Shown piece after piece: positions 13,480 through 63,702 of a DNA stretch of 64,000 nt. The stretch covers positions 132,243,388-132,307,387 of the forward strand of contig NC_134644.1 of the NCBI RefSeq assembly GCF_030463565.1. The letters run 5' to 3'. Every line of letters begins with the position of its first letter. Positions within the stretch are counted from its first letter, which is position 1. The translations under genes and the position numbers were made by a program. The DNA is from Pelecanus crispus. Lineage: Eukaryota > Chordata > Aves > Pelecaniformes > Pelecanidae. The notes under the pieces were generated by a model, which was not told where the DNA came from, searched no databases, and worked only from the letters and a program-made list of their open reading frames with translations.

Positions 13480-13850
13480 ATGCAGCAGCTCAGGCGCTGA
13501 GGCGAGCACAGCAGGTCACTTCGATGGCAGCGGGGGCGGCGGGGGGACCCGGCGGGGCCAGTAAGGGGTCCGGCAGGGCCAGTAAGGGGTCCGGCAGGGC
13601 CGGTTGCCGCAGCAGGCCACTGCGGGCCTGGCAGGGAGCCGGGCAGCAGCAGGCCCCGGGCGGCAGCGGCCCCGCAGCGGCATGGCGGCCACGGCGGGTG
13701 CTGGGCACCGGTGAGAGCCCTGGCTGGTCCGCTTTTGGGGCGCACGGCCCTGCTCGGGGTGCGGGCTGGCAGCAGGGGGCTGCAGGCCTGCGGTGGCGTC
13801 CTCGTTAGGAGCTGGGGGAGTGTGCAGTTCCCCACATGCCAGGGAGCTGG
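13480..13850. promoter_or_regulatory. Orphan CpG island, possible promoter and first exon on +
   Basis: A GC- and CpG-rich block rises abruptly from AT-rich flanks. On the + strand an ATG at 13,682 in a strong Kozak context (GCGGCATGG) opens a short frame (MAATAGAGH) that runs into a canonical donor, CACCG then GTGAGAG, at 13,711. That is the anatomy of a CpG-island first coding exon, but I could not find a partner exon downstream. Open frames through the island on both strands are expected from its base composition. Alternatives are the promoter of a non-coding RNA, or a GC-rich repeat. Confidence 0.35.
13555..13596. repeat. 21-bp tandem repeat, two units
   Basis: GGGCCAGTAAGGGGTCCGGCA is repeated twice without mismatch, and a partial third unit starts at 13,597. 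It lies inside the orphan CpG island. Confidence 0.85.
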
Positions 13851-13854
13851 TTTT

Positions 13855-13939
13855 GGGCAGGTCTAGATTGAGGGCAGGTCTAGGTTTTGGGCAGGCCTAT
13901 GTTTAGGGCAAGTCTAGGTTTAGGGCAGGCCTAGGTTTC
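13855..13939. repeat. 17-bp minisatellite, five units
   Basis: Five units of the form GGGCAGGTCTAGGTTTA are arranged head to tail at 13,855, 13,872, 13,889, 13,906 and 13,923, each with one to four changes. Unit junctions create a TTTAGGG-like string. The array directly follows the CpG island and precedes a CR1 copy. Confidence 0.85.
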
Positions 13940-14084
13940 AGGCAGGGCTGTGGCCTCTCCTGCCCTCTGTGATTCCTGGAGCAGCTGGTGAGCTGAAGGA
14001 AGATCCAGCCGACAGTTCTGTATGGCAAGTGGGACAGTGTGTGGGAGAGAAACTCGGGTACCAGGTTGCAAACAGGTGAGGGGA

Positions 14085-33400: not shown

Positions 33401-36400
33401 GGAATTTGGAAATAGGTGCTGGGATCTGTTGCCCCAACATTTGACTTTGCTTTGGCTCTTTCATGAAACCTTAGTGTTCAGTTTGACTCGTTTGATACTC
33501 CTCCAGCTGTATCAGGCTTTCTCCTTGTCATAGACAAGCAGGGCTCACATACTAGCACCTTTCCCTCTTGCACAAATGAATGCAAATCTAGACACTGCTG
33601 AGTATGGCAGGATTACCCAACTCTTCCTTTGTGGGATATATCCGTTCTTTCTCCCCACTTGCACCTTTTAACTACTGTGTCAGTCCAGATGATGATCCTC
33701 TTTTTCTTCACATGACAACAGAGCTTCCCCAATGGTAGAATTTTATTTAATCCAGCTTCATTTGACCTGTTCAGTCACTACCCCAAAAAATGTGGGAAGC
33801 CCAACTTCCATTTACAAAAAGTCAAACTGATTATTCTTCATTATGTATTTCTTTAGGTGTCTATTAATTCTTTTTATTATCATTTCTACTAATTTTCTGT
33901 AAGACAGGTTCGTAGCTTCTTTGTGTCCTCTCAAGTGCTCTTTAAAACTGGCATATTTGCTACTCTTTGTTCCTTGGACGCCTGTTATGGCAAAACACCC
34001 TCCACGCATTTCTAGCTCATCAGGTCCATATCTGATTTCCTTCAGAATTTCCAGGTGGACAGTGCCTGATCAGTGTCACTTCACCAGTTTATTCTAAAAC
34101 CTCTTCTTTATGGACTTCAATGATCTGATTTGCTTCCTAGAAAGAAAGCTTCCACTATGGGAAAGTGTTTTTCTGCAGTGAATATCTGAAATCAAAGCAA
34201 TTTAATTTAACTTTTCTGCTATTGCTTTATCTTCTGTGTCCAAGCTCAAGACTTTTCATATTACCAGTCAAAAAGTTACAGGTATTTCCAAGAGTAGAGG
34301 AGGCCCATGGCTGAAAAACTCCTGCTCTAAAAAAATTTCAGGCTCCTACATGACTGCTCAATTCATGCAAACACCTACAAAGGTGTTGGTAGAGTTAACA
34401 ATAAAATTTAACACCTTAACACCAACTGCTGAATTTGAAACAGCTCTTTGAGTTTCTGCTTGTAGGTCAGTCTGTGCACTTCAGAATACCCTTTGCTGAT
34501 ATGGTCAGAATACTCTTTGCTGATATGGGCACAGCAAATTCAGCAGGCTGGAGCCCTGTGGCTGATGTGGTTATTGTGTTTGGAGATTGAGAGCTACTTG
34601 AGTGCACAGAACAAACATTTTGAGACTCTGCTAAACTAAGAACAAACAAATAATTTCAAAACGTTCAGCATCAGCAGGAAAGTCTAACAGAGAAATTACT
34701 TACAAAAGCTTAAACTAATCATTTTGGTGCATGTCTTTGCAAGAAGCAGATAGTATTTATGGGAATAGAGATTTAATGCCAATTTAAAATGTTATTTTTT
34801 AAAGACATTTGATCTTGGTAAATTCTAAAGTGAGTTTTTTTCTTGCAAAAAGAGGATTCTAGAAGAATTGTCATTTGTTTTATAGTATCATTGCAAATAA
34901 AGATCAAGTGTTACATTTGAAGTACTGACCACAAGTTGCTCAGACTGACTTGTCATCTTGCTGGGAAGTGATAACAGATATTAAGATTGTTGAAATTACT
35001 GTCATTCTTACTTCAAAATTGCAGGAGTCATAATCAATGTCTTGCACGGTGAGGATCACATCATCTCTACTGCCTACGTAATTGACAAAGATCGCCCTCC
35101 TTGAACACTGCGTGTTGGGTCAGTACAGAACACTCAACTTGCTCATCTCTGCAGGCTTACTGTTATAATACGATATATATCCTTGCCTGCACTGCCCAAG
35201 TAATACTATAATACCACTTGTGGTTCTTAACATCTACAACCAGTGGGCCCAAATGGAATTTTTTTCTGTGCGTTGTTAGTTGGCTGTGCCCCAAATGCTG
35301 CTAACAAGTACAGGTAAAATAATACCTTGTTGACTGCAAGCATGAGAATTGCAGTTCCAGATACTTACAGATACTGAATACAACTTACCCCTTAGAAGTA
35401 CGCTTCACTGGGAACATTTCTTGAGGAAAAATACTTACTTCAGACTTTCATAGCCGTGTTCAGAAAGAATTAATCTGTTTTGGTTAAAATTAAAAGCAAC
35501 AACCACAAAACAAAGAGCCCCCCCCCCCCCCCCCCCCCCGACAACTCATGGAAAATTAATGTTACATTTCAAGACTATTCCAAAACACTCTATCAACATT
35601 CACGTGTCATGAAGTATTTTAGCTAATTTCTCTGATGTACGCCTTCAGACACAGAATGTCAAAGATGTGACTTGAGAGTCATGTATATAAGTACATATAC
35701 CGAGAATTTAACAAAAGAAGAATTTATCTTTGTATGAAATGGCAGAATGGATAACTGGATTATAAGTGAGGTTATGCTATATGTTAAAGGACAAGTAAAA
35801 ATTAATAATGTTAATTTAATGTCCAATTTATGGACTCTGTTAATAGAAAAAAAAAATAGTTTACAAAGCCTAGGTCAACACAGCAGAAGAATCTCATTTA
35901 AAATGGAGTCCTTCTCGTCCTTACTTTCCAGCTGGATTGACCAAAAAATAAGCTGAAGCTGAATCATCAATTTGACTGGAGACCAGCCATGTCCTGATGA
36001 TATTTCTAAAACCATTATACCCCACATCACCCTTACATACCTACAGTTTTCTAAACAAATGGACAAAGAAAAGGACCCCCCGCCCTCCCCTTACAATTTC
36101 CACTGTGGGTTTGTTTTGGTTTTTTTATCTCTTGATATCTTAAAGACATTTTAAAGCCTAAATAAGCTAATACATGCAGCTAACCTCTGCTGCATGTTTT
36201 ACCATGCTCTTAATCTAAAGAAGTTACCATCTCATAACAATGACTGGAAATGGATAAATGTCATCAGAACAGATTAAACTCAGATACTTTGTTGCAAACT
36301 TAGTTTAAGTTCCATCTAGAAGCTGCTTGTCGGAAAGAGAATGTTATTGCCCTACATGATTACTCCCCTTTAGTGAATAGTACTGTTTATAAAAAAAAAA

Positions 36401-47700: not shown

Positions 47701-48669
47701 ATCTAAACACCTTTGAGGATTTTGGCTGTAGAAACTTCAAACATTATACTTGTAGTTTTGTAAGTCTTGGTCATGTGTCTTGAAATTATTGTTACTGCCT
47801 GTGGTCAAAGTGATTTTTGTCATGTTAATTTAAGTGGGAAAGCAGCAGTAAGTGGGGGAAAAGTGCCCACAGATGCCTGCTTGAGGAAACTAAAGGGACA
47901 GAATTATGGAAGGAAGCATACACTGGGATGGGAGCTGGCCTTTGATGTAAGTGCCACCTATGTAAATGCCAAAGGATCTATAGTGTTAGTATTGGGTTTT
48001 CTGTTTGTTCCCAGATTTACCTATACTGCCTTTGTTTGAAATGGGAAAGACTGATCAGCAGTTTCCCATATTTCAGGAGTGCCAAAGTGATTTATACCAG
48101 CTGAGGAATCAAACACAAAGCTGTTCCATGGAAAACCATTTGTCAGGTGCTCTGTAAAACTAGGATTTTGAATTTTTTATGCAGCTTTGGGTCATGTTTA
48201 TTTTGCACAAACTGTCTTACTGTTTTTTTTAGCTAGTGCTTATAACTTTAAGGTCAACTGTACAATCCTATATTGAATGGATATAAAAGGTGTAACTAAT
48301 CAAATGTGGCAGTGTTGTGCACCAGAGAAATGTTTTTAGCGCTTTAAGTCAAACATGCTCATGATTTTTTTTTCATGTGAATTGGCTGAATGCTATGAAT
48401 TATAAATTTAGGCTTTAAATATTGATTCTGCTAACTGGTTAAAATGAGAGCAGTTAGAGCAAATACAGTTATATCCATTTTAGAGTATATTTATTATTCT
48501 AGTATTCTAAGAAACTGAGGAAACTAAAGACAAAAATTTGTTTCAGCTGTTGTGTGTGCAGTACAAATTCTGTAATTACAGAAAAGAGGTTGGCATTACT
48601 CTGCTTAAAAGAAAAATTCAGATGATGTTTGATTAAATGACTGAGAGAAAATAAATAGCATTTCAGAAC
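44747..48669. other. Intergenic DNA between SDR16C and PENK, right part
   Basis: No gene was recognised. An AT-rich low-complexity tract of TTATAATTATT-like words covers about 45,385-45,510, and a T18 run lies at 45,773-45,790. Confidence 0.5.
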
Positions 48670-48690: not shown

Positions 48691-48696
48691 TTTATT
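48691..48696 (-). terminator. PENK: PENK polyadenylation signal
   Basis: AATAAA on the minus strand lies 289 nt past the stop codon, implying cleavage near 48,670 and a 3' UTR of about 310 nt. Confidence 0.7.
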
Positions 48697-48984: not shown

Positions 48985-49650
48985 TTAAAATCTCATAAAT
49001 CCACCATATCTCTTTTCCATCTCTGGGACCTCTTTGGAATAAGTTTCCCCATCTTCTTCTGAAGGGAGAATGGAGTCAGCGAAGCGCTTAAGAAACCCAC
49101 CGTATCGTTTCTGGTAATCCAGCCACCATTCTGGCCTGCCCACTCTTCTCATGAAACCACCGTATCTCTTTTGCAGCTCTTTGGCTTCATCTTCCAATTC
49201 GGGGCTGCGCTTTACGCTTCTCATGAAGCCTCCATATCTTTTGCTGACGTCCCCGTCGTTTTCATTTATCTCTCGGTAATGCCCTGCTTCAGGATTATTC
49301 CCTGTTCCTAGAAGCTCCTTCAGCAGATCAGAGGAATTAGCAAGGGTATCGTCGTCCGAGTCTTTCTTCATAAACCCTCCATACCTCTTAGCCAGGATTT
49401 CTCCTCTGTTAGCTTCGTCCTCCGGTTCTACCCGATAGAGCTCATCCATCTTCTTCATGAACCCCCCGTATCTTTTCATGAAGCCTCCATACTTCTTTGC
49501 AAGCAAATGGTTTTCATCCAGCTCTTTCTTGTCTCCTGGAGCAATGTTGCCATCCTCAGAAAGATCCAGCTTTGCCAGTTGCAAGAGCTCCTTGCAGGTC
49601 TCCCAGGCTTTGGCAGAAGGCAGCTTTCCTTCACACTCTAGTGTGCATGC
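48985..49650 (-). CDS. PENK: PENK second coding exon (residues 47-267)
   Basis: The acceptor is ATTTTTCAG, and the first codons read ACTLECEGKLP. It encodes the last three cysteines and all seven opioid units and stops after YGGFMRF. The exon start is set by the splice site, not by a methionine. All enkephalin units in one exon is the standard vertebrate PENK layout. Confidence 0.98.
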   Translation of the reverse strand, partial: ACTLECEGKLPSAKAWETCKELLQLAKLDLSEDGNIAPGDKKELDENHLLAKKYGGFMKRYGGFMKKMDELYRVEPEDEANRGEILAKRYGGFMKKDSDDDTLANSSDLLKELLGTGNNPEAGHYREINENDGDVSKRYGGFMRSVKRSPELEDEAKELQKRYGGFMRRVGRPEWWLDYQKRYGGFLKRFADSILPSEEDGETYSKEVPEMEKRYGGFMRF

Positions 49651-52600
49651 CTGAAAAATGGATGTGGTTTACTGAGAACTATTCGAGATCAGCAAGCACC
49701 TCGCTGCCACTTTGTCTTAGCTTTACTTGTTTTTAAAAGACCACGAGTGAGCCTCTCTTTGTGAGCGGCTTGGAAGGACTGCTCTTTGTGAACAGCTGAT
49801 TTCCTTACTGTCTGTTCTGAAGTTCTTCATATCCCTCTCTGAAGGACATGCATTCTAAAGGAGAATATCCATTCTAAGAGACAGAATACTGGACAAGATG
49901 GATCAAGGATCCTGTATGTCAAGGTGCCCCTATGTTTCTGTTTCAAAGGAAGCCACATGTACCATTCCTGCACCTCCCTTACGCTCAGGTGCATTGTTAT
50001 GATCTTTTTTTTTTATTTATTTACTACTGGGAAGCTAAAAACCAATTGTGGTTGGCTTCATAATGAAAGTGTAGAAGTGTATTTGATCTTCATAATTAAA
50101 AGTAACATTCAGGAATTTTAGGAAAGAAGTTACATGGCATTGTCATTGCAAAGAAGCCATCTGTACTGTACTGCTCAGTATCTGCAACACACTGCACAGC
50201 TCTAAAGCTATATTTCTGTCTGTTGCCTTTAGTTTCTCTTTGTGGAACAGATCTTTCAAATGTGTGCCAATTCAAATGTAGAAATACAGGCTCTCTTAGG
50301 CAGGATCAAACTTCTGGTTTTGCTAGTTTGACATACAAAGTAGTGACAATCGGAAAGAGAAGAAAAATTCCTAAGCTGTTTTGCTTCTGACTGTAATGAA
50401 AAATTTTCAGGCTAAGACATAAAAAAAGTTTTCAATACCTGTATGCATATCTCGTAACCTGTCATGTAAAGATAATAATATACATATTAGCTACTACTAT
50501 CTCTGTTGTGTGAGGGAAATGTACTTCTTGTGAAGCCACACTCTTCAGTTGGGAAAAAAAGTGAATCCAGTGGTTTTCTTCCTTGCCTATGGTTTTTATA
50601 CCACAACAATGAAACAAGAAATCATCAATATTTTCAGTAAGAGAAACACTTATTCTGCCTACAGATTATGTTTTCTAGCGATCTGGATATGCTTTAAAAA
50701 TGCAAAGTTAAACCACAGCACCATTTTCTCTAATAGCTAACTGACCAGCTCTCTACCTCTGGCCTTACCTGTCTGTTGAGCCCCATTTTAGTCTGATAAA
50801 TTTATATATGGTTTTTGATATGACCAAAAGACAACTAAAGTGATTTATGAATTTTGCAACAATAATTTATCTATTTTAAATGGCACTACATGCTTGTTGT
50901 TATATTTACAGTTATGCCGAAAAGAGAATGTGATCTCAGCTTCAGTCTGACTTTGAAATTGCTCTAAATCAAAGCAAGCATAGATCATTCCCTTCCTCCT
51001 CCCTTCTCAATTAGTTTAAATAATGCCCTAGAGTCAAATCAACACATGCTATCTCATAGGTGTGAATGACCAGGTACAATGTGATAAAACTTGTATCTTA
51101 CAAGATACAATGAGATAAAATTCAGTGATGTTACTAGAAACATTTGTTTCTCAAAGCTATTTGTACGTGTATGAGGAATATATGGTCCCGCACATTGCTT
51201 ATTTTCCCATTTCAACTAGTAAGTGTTGTTACAGAATGAGGCTTTGATTCTTTCTTGAATAAATACTGAAGGTGTACAAAAGAGAATATCAATAGAGACA
51301 CCCACAACATACACTCCAAAAAGCATGCATCCCTCCCTCCAAGAGAGCAAACTACCACTTTTTTCCCTAGCTGACATTAAAGCTAAAGTTTGATTGAAAG
51401 CTAATGTAAGCGAAAAACTGTTTTGCCAGCCCTCCTAAGAATATTGCCCTTATGAACCTGCTGTGGCTAAGAGTGAGTCCTTGCTTTTGGAGTAAGCAGA
51501 AGTACTCAGTGATTCCTAATTCTGCGTAAGAAGAGGGTCCAATCCTTCCTTTTGCTTGCTCCCAAATAATCGATGACTTCTTAGGAACAAAACTTTTCAG
51601 ATCATTCAGACGTGCTGAGAACATGATGCCTCAATACACATTTATTTGAGGTCAGGAACCGCAGGTGCCAATGGCAAAGGGCTTGGCAGCAGCCTGAGCT
51701 CCCAGCTTCAGGGAGGGCCGAGGGACCCCAGACTTTCACTGACCCCGACCCTTAAATTTCAAGTTGAGTTGCCTCTGTGACTATACTTTTAAATAATTTC
51801 AATATCATTAAAATTACAGATACATCCTCCCCTCCACCCCCCCGCATTCTGGAGTTGTCTTAGCATGATTTGTCTCGGGAGACAGCGGCAAAGGCATCTT
51901 TCACAGGCATATTCCTAACGCTGGGCAGCACCGTGCAAAGAGGAAGAGCGGCGGGAGGCATTGCTACTCTAACCAAGCTCGAACCCCGCTTTTTGTGAGA
52001 TTTCAGGCACGTCCACCGCTTTGCAGCTCGACAGCCATCCTGCCTGGAGAGAGCCCACCCTGCCGGGGAGCCTGCGCCCGGGGTCGGGACCCTCCACCCC
52101 TCCGGCTTTCCCCGGCCCCACCGACCACCTTTCCCTGCAGAGCTGCCCTCTCCGGCCACCTTTCCCTTTCCCTTTACGTTTTCACTTGGCTTTTTCCTTG
52201 CTCCCGCCGCGGGGTGCCCCCCCGAGAGCCGCCGCTCGCTGACGGGCAGCGGGACGGACGGACAGACGGACGGGGTGTCTCCTCGGGGCGCTGGGTTTGT
52301 GTCAGCGCCTCCCGCACCCCCCCCCCCCCCCCCCCCAGCGCCCCGGGGCCCGCTCCTCCCTCCCTCCCCCCTTCAAAACCGGGTCTTCCAAGCGAGCCCG
52401 GCCGCTTCCCCCACTATTAATTGTTGTTATTTCGCTCTTTTGTCCCCTTCCCCTTTTCCTCCCTCCCAAAGTTAAGGCAGGGCGGGGGGCCCGGCACAGC
52501 CAAAGGGGGGGGTCCTCCGGGGCGCTGAAGCGGCCGGGCGACCCACCCGGCCCCGCTCCCGCTTACCAGGGGGTGGAGGGGGGGGCCCGCTCCCGCTTAC

Positions 52601-52772
52601 CAGGGGGTGGAGGGGGGGGCCCGCTCCCGCTTACCAGGGGGTGGATGGCGGCGCGGGGTCCCAGGCGGTAGGCGCAGGCCGCGCAGTCGCGGCCGCAGTC
52701 CGCCCGCGCCCCGGCGAGCAGGCAGGTGCTGAGGGCTAGCAGCGAGCAGCCGAGTCTCAGGAGCAACGCCAT
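48985..52772 (-). CDS. PENK: Proenkephalin precursor, two coding exons
   Basis: Exons 52,772-52,635 and 49,650-48,985 join in phase 0 and encode 267 residues, the same length as human PENK. The precursor enters the secretory pathway and is cut at dibasic sites into opioid pentapeptides acting on delta and mu receptors. Visible parts: signal peptide 1-24 (cut after GARA), mature cysteines 26, 30, 33, 48, 52 and 65 forming the conserved six-Cys sorting module, then YGGFM at 100, 107, 136 and 209, YGGFMRSV at 185-192, YGGFL at 229 and YGGFMRF at 261-267. The segment from 209 (YGGFMRRVGRPEWWLDYQ) is the BAM/metorphamide region. Two differences from mammals: the first Met-enkephalin follows KK rather than KR, and the octapeptide ends RSV rather than RGL. 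The intron is 2,984 bp and its donor is triplicated. Confidence 0.98.
49651..52634 (-). other. PENK: PENK intron between the coding exons
   Basis: The intron is bounded by GTAAGC (52,634-52,629) and a pyrimidine-rich acceptor ending CAG at 49,651. It contains two further donor copies (see the 34-bp repeat) and a C20 run at 52,317-52,336, and its 5' third is part of the PENK CpG island. No other gene was seen inside. Confidence 0.85.
52317..52336. repeat. C20 homopolymer in the PENK intron
   Basis: Twenty C residues in a row occur on the + strand, so the nascent PENK transcript carries G20. Length is likely unstable or mis-assembled. Confidence 0.88.
52552..52645 (-). repeat. PENK: 34-bp tandem repeat triplicating the PENK exon-intron junction
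   Basis: Unit starts are 52,552, 52,586 and 52,620. The first two units are complete and identical and the third covers 26 bp before diverging inside the exon. On the minus strand each unit carries the last nine exon bases (CACCCCCTG) and the donor GTAAGCGGG. The exon-proximal donor (exon end 52,635) is the one that preserves the reading frame. The two distal donors would leave exon ends at 52,601 and 52,567. Confidence 0.95.
52635..52772 (-). CDS. PENK: PENK first coding exon (residues 1-46)
   Basis: The exon starts at 52,776 after TTCTTGCAG, leaving only CCCC before the ATG at 52,772. It encodes the signal peptide (MALLLRLG through GARA) and the first three mature cysteines, and ends IHPL in phase 0. 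Length and phase match the corresponding mammalian exon. Confidence 0.96.
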
Positions 52773-53288
52773 GGGGCTGCAAGAAGGAGAGGTCAGCCGG
52801 CAGCCAACTCCCCCCGCTCCCAGCCCCGGCACTGCCTTCCCCGCTCCCCCCCACCCCCCCTCAGCTTCGGGGCAGAAAAAGGCGGCAGGAAACTGTAAAA
52901 CCAAGTCCTGGGTCGCACGCAACTCCGGTAACCCACACGCTTTTTGCTGCCGGGGTGGGTGCGCTTGCGAGGTAAGCAGGCGCTTAAGGTAAGCAGGCGC
53001 TTGGCAGCTGCAAGGCAAGGGAGCAGGAGCGGACCCGAACGACGAAGCGCCCAGAAGCTCCCCGTCCGCTGAAAAGTGCTCGTCCCAAAACACTTCACCC
53101 CGCCCTTCCCGCAAAGCCCGCGCCTCAGGGCGGGGGGAGACCCGGCGCGGACGGGACGGCGGCCCCTCCCGGGAAGGGTTTCCCACCGGAGCGCCCCGAG
53201 CAGCCGCCCCGACGGCGGGCACCAGCCCCGGCAGAGCCGCCGCCGGGCCTGCCCCGGTCCCCGCCGCAGGCAGAGCAAGGTCACTCAC

Positions 53289-53566: not shown

Positions 53567-53645
53567 CTTTATAATTAGTGAACGCGGGGAGAGCGTGGCC
53601 TCCCCCAATCGCCGTCGGGCTCCCGCTGACGCAGCACCTACGCCA
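53567..53645 (-). promoter_or_regulatory. PENK: PENK core promoter: TATA, CCAAT, ENKCRE-2, ENKCRE-1
   Basis: Reading the minus strand toward the gene, TGGCGTA (ENKCRE-1, 53,645-53,639) is followed after 5 nt by TGCGTCA (ENKCRE-2, 53,633-53,627). Then come AGCCCGACGGCGATTGG with the inverted CCAAT box (53,609-53,605) and TATAAAG (53,573-53,567). Order, spacing and sequence follow the cAMP- and Ca-inducible mammalian PENK enhancer, where ENKCRE-2 binds CREB and AP-1 family factors and the segment next to CCAAT binds NF-1. This supports conserved activity-dependent control. Confidence 0.93.
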
Positions 53646-63426: not shown

Positions 63427-63618
63427 CTGAAAGAAAAATACAATCAAACCGAATCTGGTATTTTCAAATGCATTTTACAAACACAGAATTAATGTAATTC
63501 TGCAAAGCTCTCAACTTCTGTAGAGTTTTATGGCTAATTTATATGTGGCTATGTGATATTCAGTTCCAGGAGGCCTATTTAAAACAGAGGTTCAGTTTTA
63601 ATCATGTCCTCCCTCCTT

Positions 63619-63702
63619 GATCTTCTGAAAAGAAACTCTTCACTTTGTTTGAGTTGTGATGATCTTGTGAAAAGAAACTCTTCACTTTGTTTGAGTTGCG
63701 AT
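63619..63702. repeat. 42-bp direct tandem duplication
   Basis: Two adjacent 42-bp units beginning GATCTT differ at two bases. This indicates a recent local duplication. Confidence 0.92.

Follow-up and report, generated by a model that had tools for sequence, protein, structure and literature searches.

The minus strand of the window, by which we mean the whole 64,000-nucleotide stretch of Pelecanus crispus DNA analysed here, carries a proenkephalin gene (PENK) whose first coding exon ends at 52635 with ...ATCCACCCCCTG, directly followed by GTAAGC. A tandem array extends across this exon end and repeats its splice donor, so that three donors, termed D1, D2 and D3 from the exon outwards, stand in a row. 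The key features are:

52635..52772, minus strand: coding part of the first PENK coding exon, from the ATG (52772) to D1 (sequence)
48985..49650, minus strand: exon 3 of PENK, coding for the enkephalin copies, from the acceptor to the stop codon TAA (48987-48985), apparently the last exon (sequence)
52552..52645, minus strand: perfect 34-bp tandem array of 2.8 copies across the boundary between PENK coding exon 1 and the intron (TRF, lag-identity simulation)
52612..52645, minus strand: unit 1, with 11 terminal exon bases, donor D1 (exon end 52635) and 23 intron bases (sequence)
52578..52611, minus strand: unit 2, with donor D2 (exon end would be 52601) and a 63-residue frameshifted product (sequence)
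52552..52577, minus strand: partial unit 3 (26 of 34 bp), with donor D3 (exon end would be 52567) and a 72-residue frameshifted product (sequence)
52542..52560, minus strand: cluster of G-runs just past D3 with a G3 quadruplex pattern, on the intron side that would have belonged to the ancestral donor (pattern search)

Splicing of D1 to the acceptor at 49650 yields a 267-residue opioid precursor with enkephalin repeats, which contains YGGFM, YGGFL and a terminal YGGFMRF as well as VGRPEWWLDYQ, a sequence on record as a PENK peptide of the zebra finch. The product matches PF01160 completely and across the splice junction (profile positions 1-47 of 47, 66.2 bits at a curated cut-off of 23.5 bits) and therewith combines the opioid-precursor N-terminal domain with YGGF repeats, as expected of a PENK ortholog. 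Translation and profile match together confirm an earlier note on this DNA, in which the 267-residue protein had been assigned to the exon-proximal donor. A TATAAA at 53573 and the motifs TGGCGTA (53645) and TGCGTCA (53633), which we take to be enkephalin CRE elements, lie upstream of the gene; an AATAAA is found at 48696, ca. 300 bases past the stop codon, with further ones at 48495 and 48202. Given the reading frames, the full domain and the upstream TATAAA and CRE-like motifs, PENK looks like an intact gene. Among viral contigs the search for PENK returned 29 pattern stretches, none of which was confirmed.

When joined to the same acceptor, D2 encodes 63 residues and terminates at a TGA 18 nt inside exon 3, and D3 encodes 72 residues and terminates at a TAG 11 nt inside exon 3. 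Both products are devoid of enkephalins and cover only positions 1-24 of the 47 profile positions of PF01160, with scores (22.5 and 23.1 bits, respectively) just under the cut-off. The distal donors thus shift the frame and lead to an early stop ahead of any enkephalin, as the same note had read. Retention of the intron gives 69 residues, the terminating TAA (52565-52563) being made by the GGTAA of D3 itself. Since this TAA lies in the exon frame, no donor past D3, e.g. the GT at 52547, would be productive either.

The array, its three donors and their frames are present in the assembly sequence. Read from 52645 to 52552 on the minus strand, it consists of 34 + 34 + 26 bp with 100% match and 0 indels, and its TRF score of 188 is the highest among the 38 TRF rows of the 64-kb window. 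TRF and the sequence itself agree on three donors within a perfect 34-bp repeat at the first PENK coding exon, and only the number of exon bases repeated per unit had to be corrected from nine to 11 (TCCACCCCCTG). The donors, CTG/GTAAGC at 34-bp spacing (the slash marks the exon end), share the identical context CCCCTG/GTAAGCGG; 11 exonic and 15 intronic bases are common to all three and 23 intronic bases to D1 and D2. At lag 34 the identity run extends over 60 bases, compared with a longest run of 14 at any lag of 15-60, and a mean of maxima of 8.8, in 500 first-order Markov simulations modelled on the local 701 bases (52300-53000). The 19-base unit core, with up to 3 mismatches allowed, occurs three times in the window, each time exactly and inside the array, and on average 0.00 times in 100 shuffles. 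Run lengths and shuffle counts rule out a chance origin. A 241-bp query comprising array and exon found one matching place in this assembly, the single genome searched.

Several other repeats were recorded in the window. On the plus strand, opposite to PENK, a 17-bp tandem repeat (52961-53003) creates two consecutive donor-like AGGTAAGC motifs; with respect to PENK it lies upstream of the first coding exon, ca. 316 bp from the 34-bp array. At 63618-63702 a 42-bp tandem duplication comprises two copies with 95% match, and at 13849-13946 a 17-bp repeat comprises about six copies with 80% match and a 51-bp higher-order period. Long C runs on the plus strand are located at 35518-35539 (22 bases) and 52317-52336 (20 bases), the assembly reading through both. 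One other minus-strand GTAAG triplet within 60 + 60 bp exists in the window (35438, 35388 and 35368), which by eye is not a tandem repeat.

The cores of D1, D2 and D3 are equal, each with a PWM score of 9.35 and a U1 duplex of -8.0 (donor PWM and U1 end sequence are approximations, not MaxEntScan). The previous description of the donors as equally strong therefore holds for the cores but not for their settings. The array splits the surroundings of the presumed ancestral donor, leaving the native exon side at D1 and the native intron side at D3; D3 is followed by four G-runs, D1 and D2 by two each, and the G3 motif at 52560-52542 may form a G-quadruplex. Inside the array no G-quadruplex pattern was matched; the sole match begins within unit 3 and runs beyond its end. 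The predicted mean unpaired values of D1, D2 and D3 are 0.50, 0.53 and 0.45 in a short fold and 0.46, 0.46 and 0.31 in a long fold. RNA structure was rejected as a clear discriminator between the donors, as the predicted accessibility differs only slightly, with D3 being lowest. The fourth GT at 52547 (CGG/GTGGGT) is weaker than the array donors by PWM (7.62) and stronger by its U1 duplex (-10.7, unconstrained). By PWM the array donors rank about 14th among 3168 minus-strand GTs. A GT far inside the intron (50769, CAG/GTAAGG) reaches 11.43; because this intronic GT outscores the array donors, a good PWM score alone does not define a used donor.

Classical duplicated-donor experiments reportedly favour the intron-proximal site. 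SRSF1 can likewise favour the intron-proximal donor, according to the available part of a report on DOK7 (PMC5585400). For human tandem splice sites of near-equal strength, the accessible text of another study describes a higher usage of the upstream minor site, a trend that applies to sites a few bases apart and partly concerns acceptors (PMC8055015). On balance, D1 would most likely dominate splicing, but this expectation is not certain because of the richer G-run setting of D3 and the ability of SRSF1 to favour intron-proximal donors.

Both the sequence and the structure of mammalian PENK suggest exon 3 to be the final exon of the gene. As both early stops lie in this apparent last exon, the D2 and D3 mRNAs should escape classical, exon-junction-dependent decay. 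In NMD-coupled unproductive splicing, according to the accessible text, the premature stop precedes the last exon junction by more than 50 nt (PMC2423196). Neither the D2 nor the D3 stop takes this position, and a switch operating by NMD is rejected on these grounds. Decay may still be triggered by a long 3'UTR; ca. 940 nt separate the D2 stop from the end of the first AATAAA. Short stubs that lack any opioid peptide and carry an apparent signal peptide are the likely products of the D2 and D3 mRNAs. The term unproductive, formerly applied to them, hence calls for qualification, as these mRNAs are not expected to undergo exon-junction-dependent decay and might be translated into truncated peptides. 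The D3 frame (52563-52645, minus strand) contains, 3' of the apparent signal peptide, the sequence PPPPPPGKRER, whose GKR we take to resemble an amidation and dibasic processing signal.

We infer that the array is real DNA, and likewise its age, the use of its donors, the stability of the mRNAs, its variability and its effect on fitness. Our best explanation, for which we see about an even chance, is a recent expansion of minisatellite type with D1 dominant, a minor leak and probably neutral or mildly harmful consequences. In this scenario a 34-bp unit would have expanded from one to nearly three copies and would have happened to cover the PENK exon/intron boundary. The exon-adjacent D1 would still take most of the splicing and provide normal proenkephalin. 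A minor share would leak to D2 or D3 and form stable mRNAs, which would encode the N-terminal region with the apparent signal peptide, followed by an aberrant tail without enkephalin. The array would probably be neutral or mildly harmful and variable in copy number. Its perfect copies and the 8-C runs, identical in both full units, suggest a recent origin or homogenisation. No 8-C run like the one between the units stands at either outer border of the array, a further one being located 40 bp outside it, at 52512; the run is therefore not explained by simply duplicating the flanks as they are now. Either the run was in the ancestral intron and the last unit has since been altered, or it was inserted during the first duplication.

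The same perfect identity of the copies would also be compatible with an assembly or consensus artefact, by which one true unit was falsely tripled in a GC-rich stretch, a reading that we regard as rather unlikely, though a genuine concern. The GC content is 71% in the region and 79% in the unit with its 8-C runs, and a 20-base homopolymer is found 216 bp from the array. The 97 TRF rows obtained from 20 samples of 10 kb along the same contig include none with a period of 20-60, a 100% match and 2.5 or more copies, a rarity which we count against the recent expansion as it suits an artefact as well, but which is no proof in either direction. This repeat background comprises 20 stretches (200 kb) of one contig and one 10-kb stretch of another, picked irrespective of GC-richness and too small a sample for a rate. 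Arguing against an artefact, homopolymers of 20 and 22 bases are read through, the window is free of N and the contig extends over 176 Mb, which together point to a long-read based assembly of apparently good quality (1.31 Gb, 310 contigs). Moreover, the sampled contig stretches contain two-copy tandem duplications of 31 bp (100% match), 40 bp (97%) and 35 bp (97%), and such short, near-perfect duplications would be expected from ordinary mutation.

A hypomorphic allele, with a large share of the splicing going to D3 (or D2) and a constitutively lower enkephalin output, appears improbable. D3 might attract such a share because it retains the native intron side with the G-runs, four in number versus two at each of the other donors, together with the G3 quadruplex motif, and the SRSF1 preference for intron-proximal donors is consistent with it. 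However, this allele is at odds with the preference for upstream minor sites among near-equal human tandem sites (PMC8055015), with a one-unit retention near 2% in human ABCA7 according to the available text (PMC5954066), and with the predicted accessibility of D3, the lowest in both folds (0.45 and 0.31 versus 0.50 and 0.46 for D1); purifying selection on PENK should also oppose it.

The tunable switch of the earlier note, by which tissue or state would pick D1 or D2/D3 and tune the opioid output without mRNA decay, is very improbable, for although identical donor cores and the early stop terminating D2, D3 and retention alike would suit it, no positive support was found, a simple duplication accounts for the layout, the unit length being, like two in three possible lengths, no multiple of three, and the perfect copies argue for the youth of the array. 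Literature combining proenkephalin, splice donor and tandem repeat was not found, and in a broader PENK/splicing/repeat search none among the matches listed combines the two PENK terms. We attach just as little probability to a copy-number-variable triple donor by which carriers would divert a set share of the PENK pre-mRNA to stable mRNAs, with short secreted peptides replacing enkephalins; the GKR of the D3 form might then be processed by prohormone convertases and amidating enzymes to a new peptide.

If real, the array would be a natural setting for testing how three identical-core donors compete within a neuropeptide gene, and would join ABCA7 as another repeat that multiplies a splice donor. 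It would moreover represent a frame-shifting, decay-independent change of opioid output that is readable directly from junction counts. If an artefact, it would be a warning against taking such arrays as biology.

The PENK array shares features with several known systems, which are considered here as far as the accessible parts of the respective texts permit. Like PENK, GYNNGY tandem sites consist of close competing donors with a frame shift upon distal use (PMC8055015, PMC2423196), but their donors are only a few bases apart, typically 4, whereas those of PENK are separate sites at a spacing of 34 bp, produced by tandem duplication. DOK7 intron 4 also possesses competing donors, two in number, which give canonical and frame-shifted transcripts; they differ in strength and their regulation by SRSF1 is shown, in contrast to the identical donor cores of PENK, and a tandem repeat is not mentioned in the available part of that report (PMC5585400). 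The closest precedent found is human ABCA7, whose intron-18 VNTR is built of ca. 12 to 427 slightly varying 25-bp units beginning with the exon-18 donor GT (PMC5954066). Retention of one unit accounts for 2 ± 1% of transcripts (the second of two values given "respectively"); its level is about the same in two brain regions as in cell lines and, in the latter, independent of VNTR size (PMC5954066). As cycloheximide raised the PTC transcripts, this steady-state value may understate donor use (PMC5954066). The following exon was skipped far more often with longer VNTRs, so that donor-spanning arrays are not always silent (PMC5954066). Because the ABCA7 units vary slightly, their distal donors may be less perfect than those of PENK. 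The ABCA7 array starts at the GT with 25 bp, whereas that of PENK has 34 bp and 2.8 perfect units including 11 exon bases. Unit retention in ABCA7 is NMD-sensitive and the length effect concerns skipping of the exon that follows, whereas in PENK this following exon holds both stops and is apparently the last one, with no other after it. Polymorphism and RNA are shown for ABCA7, whereas the PENK array is known here from one genome sequence. Despite these differences, both arrays are C-rich, their units repeat the donor of the exon and have a length that is not a multiple of three, and the donor of the next unit shifts the frame. As judged by its sequence, the PENK array includes the donor of a coding exon and repeats it in each unit, which is the layout of a splice-donor-spanning VNTR as already known from human ABCA7.
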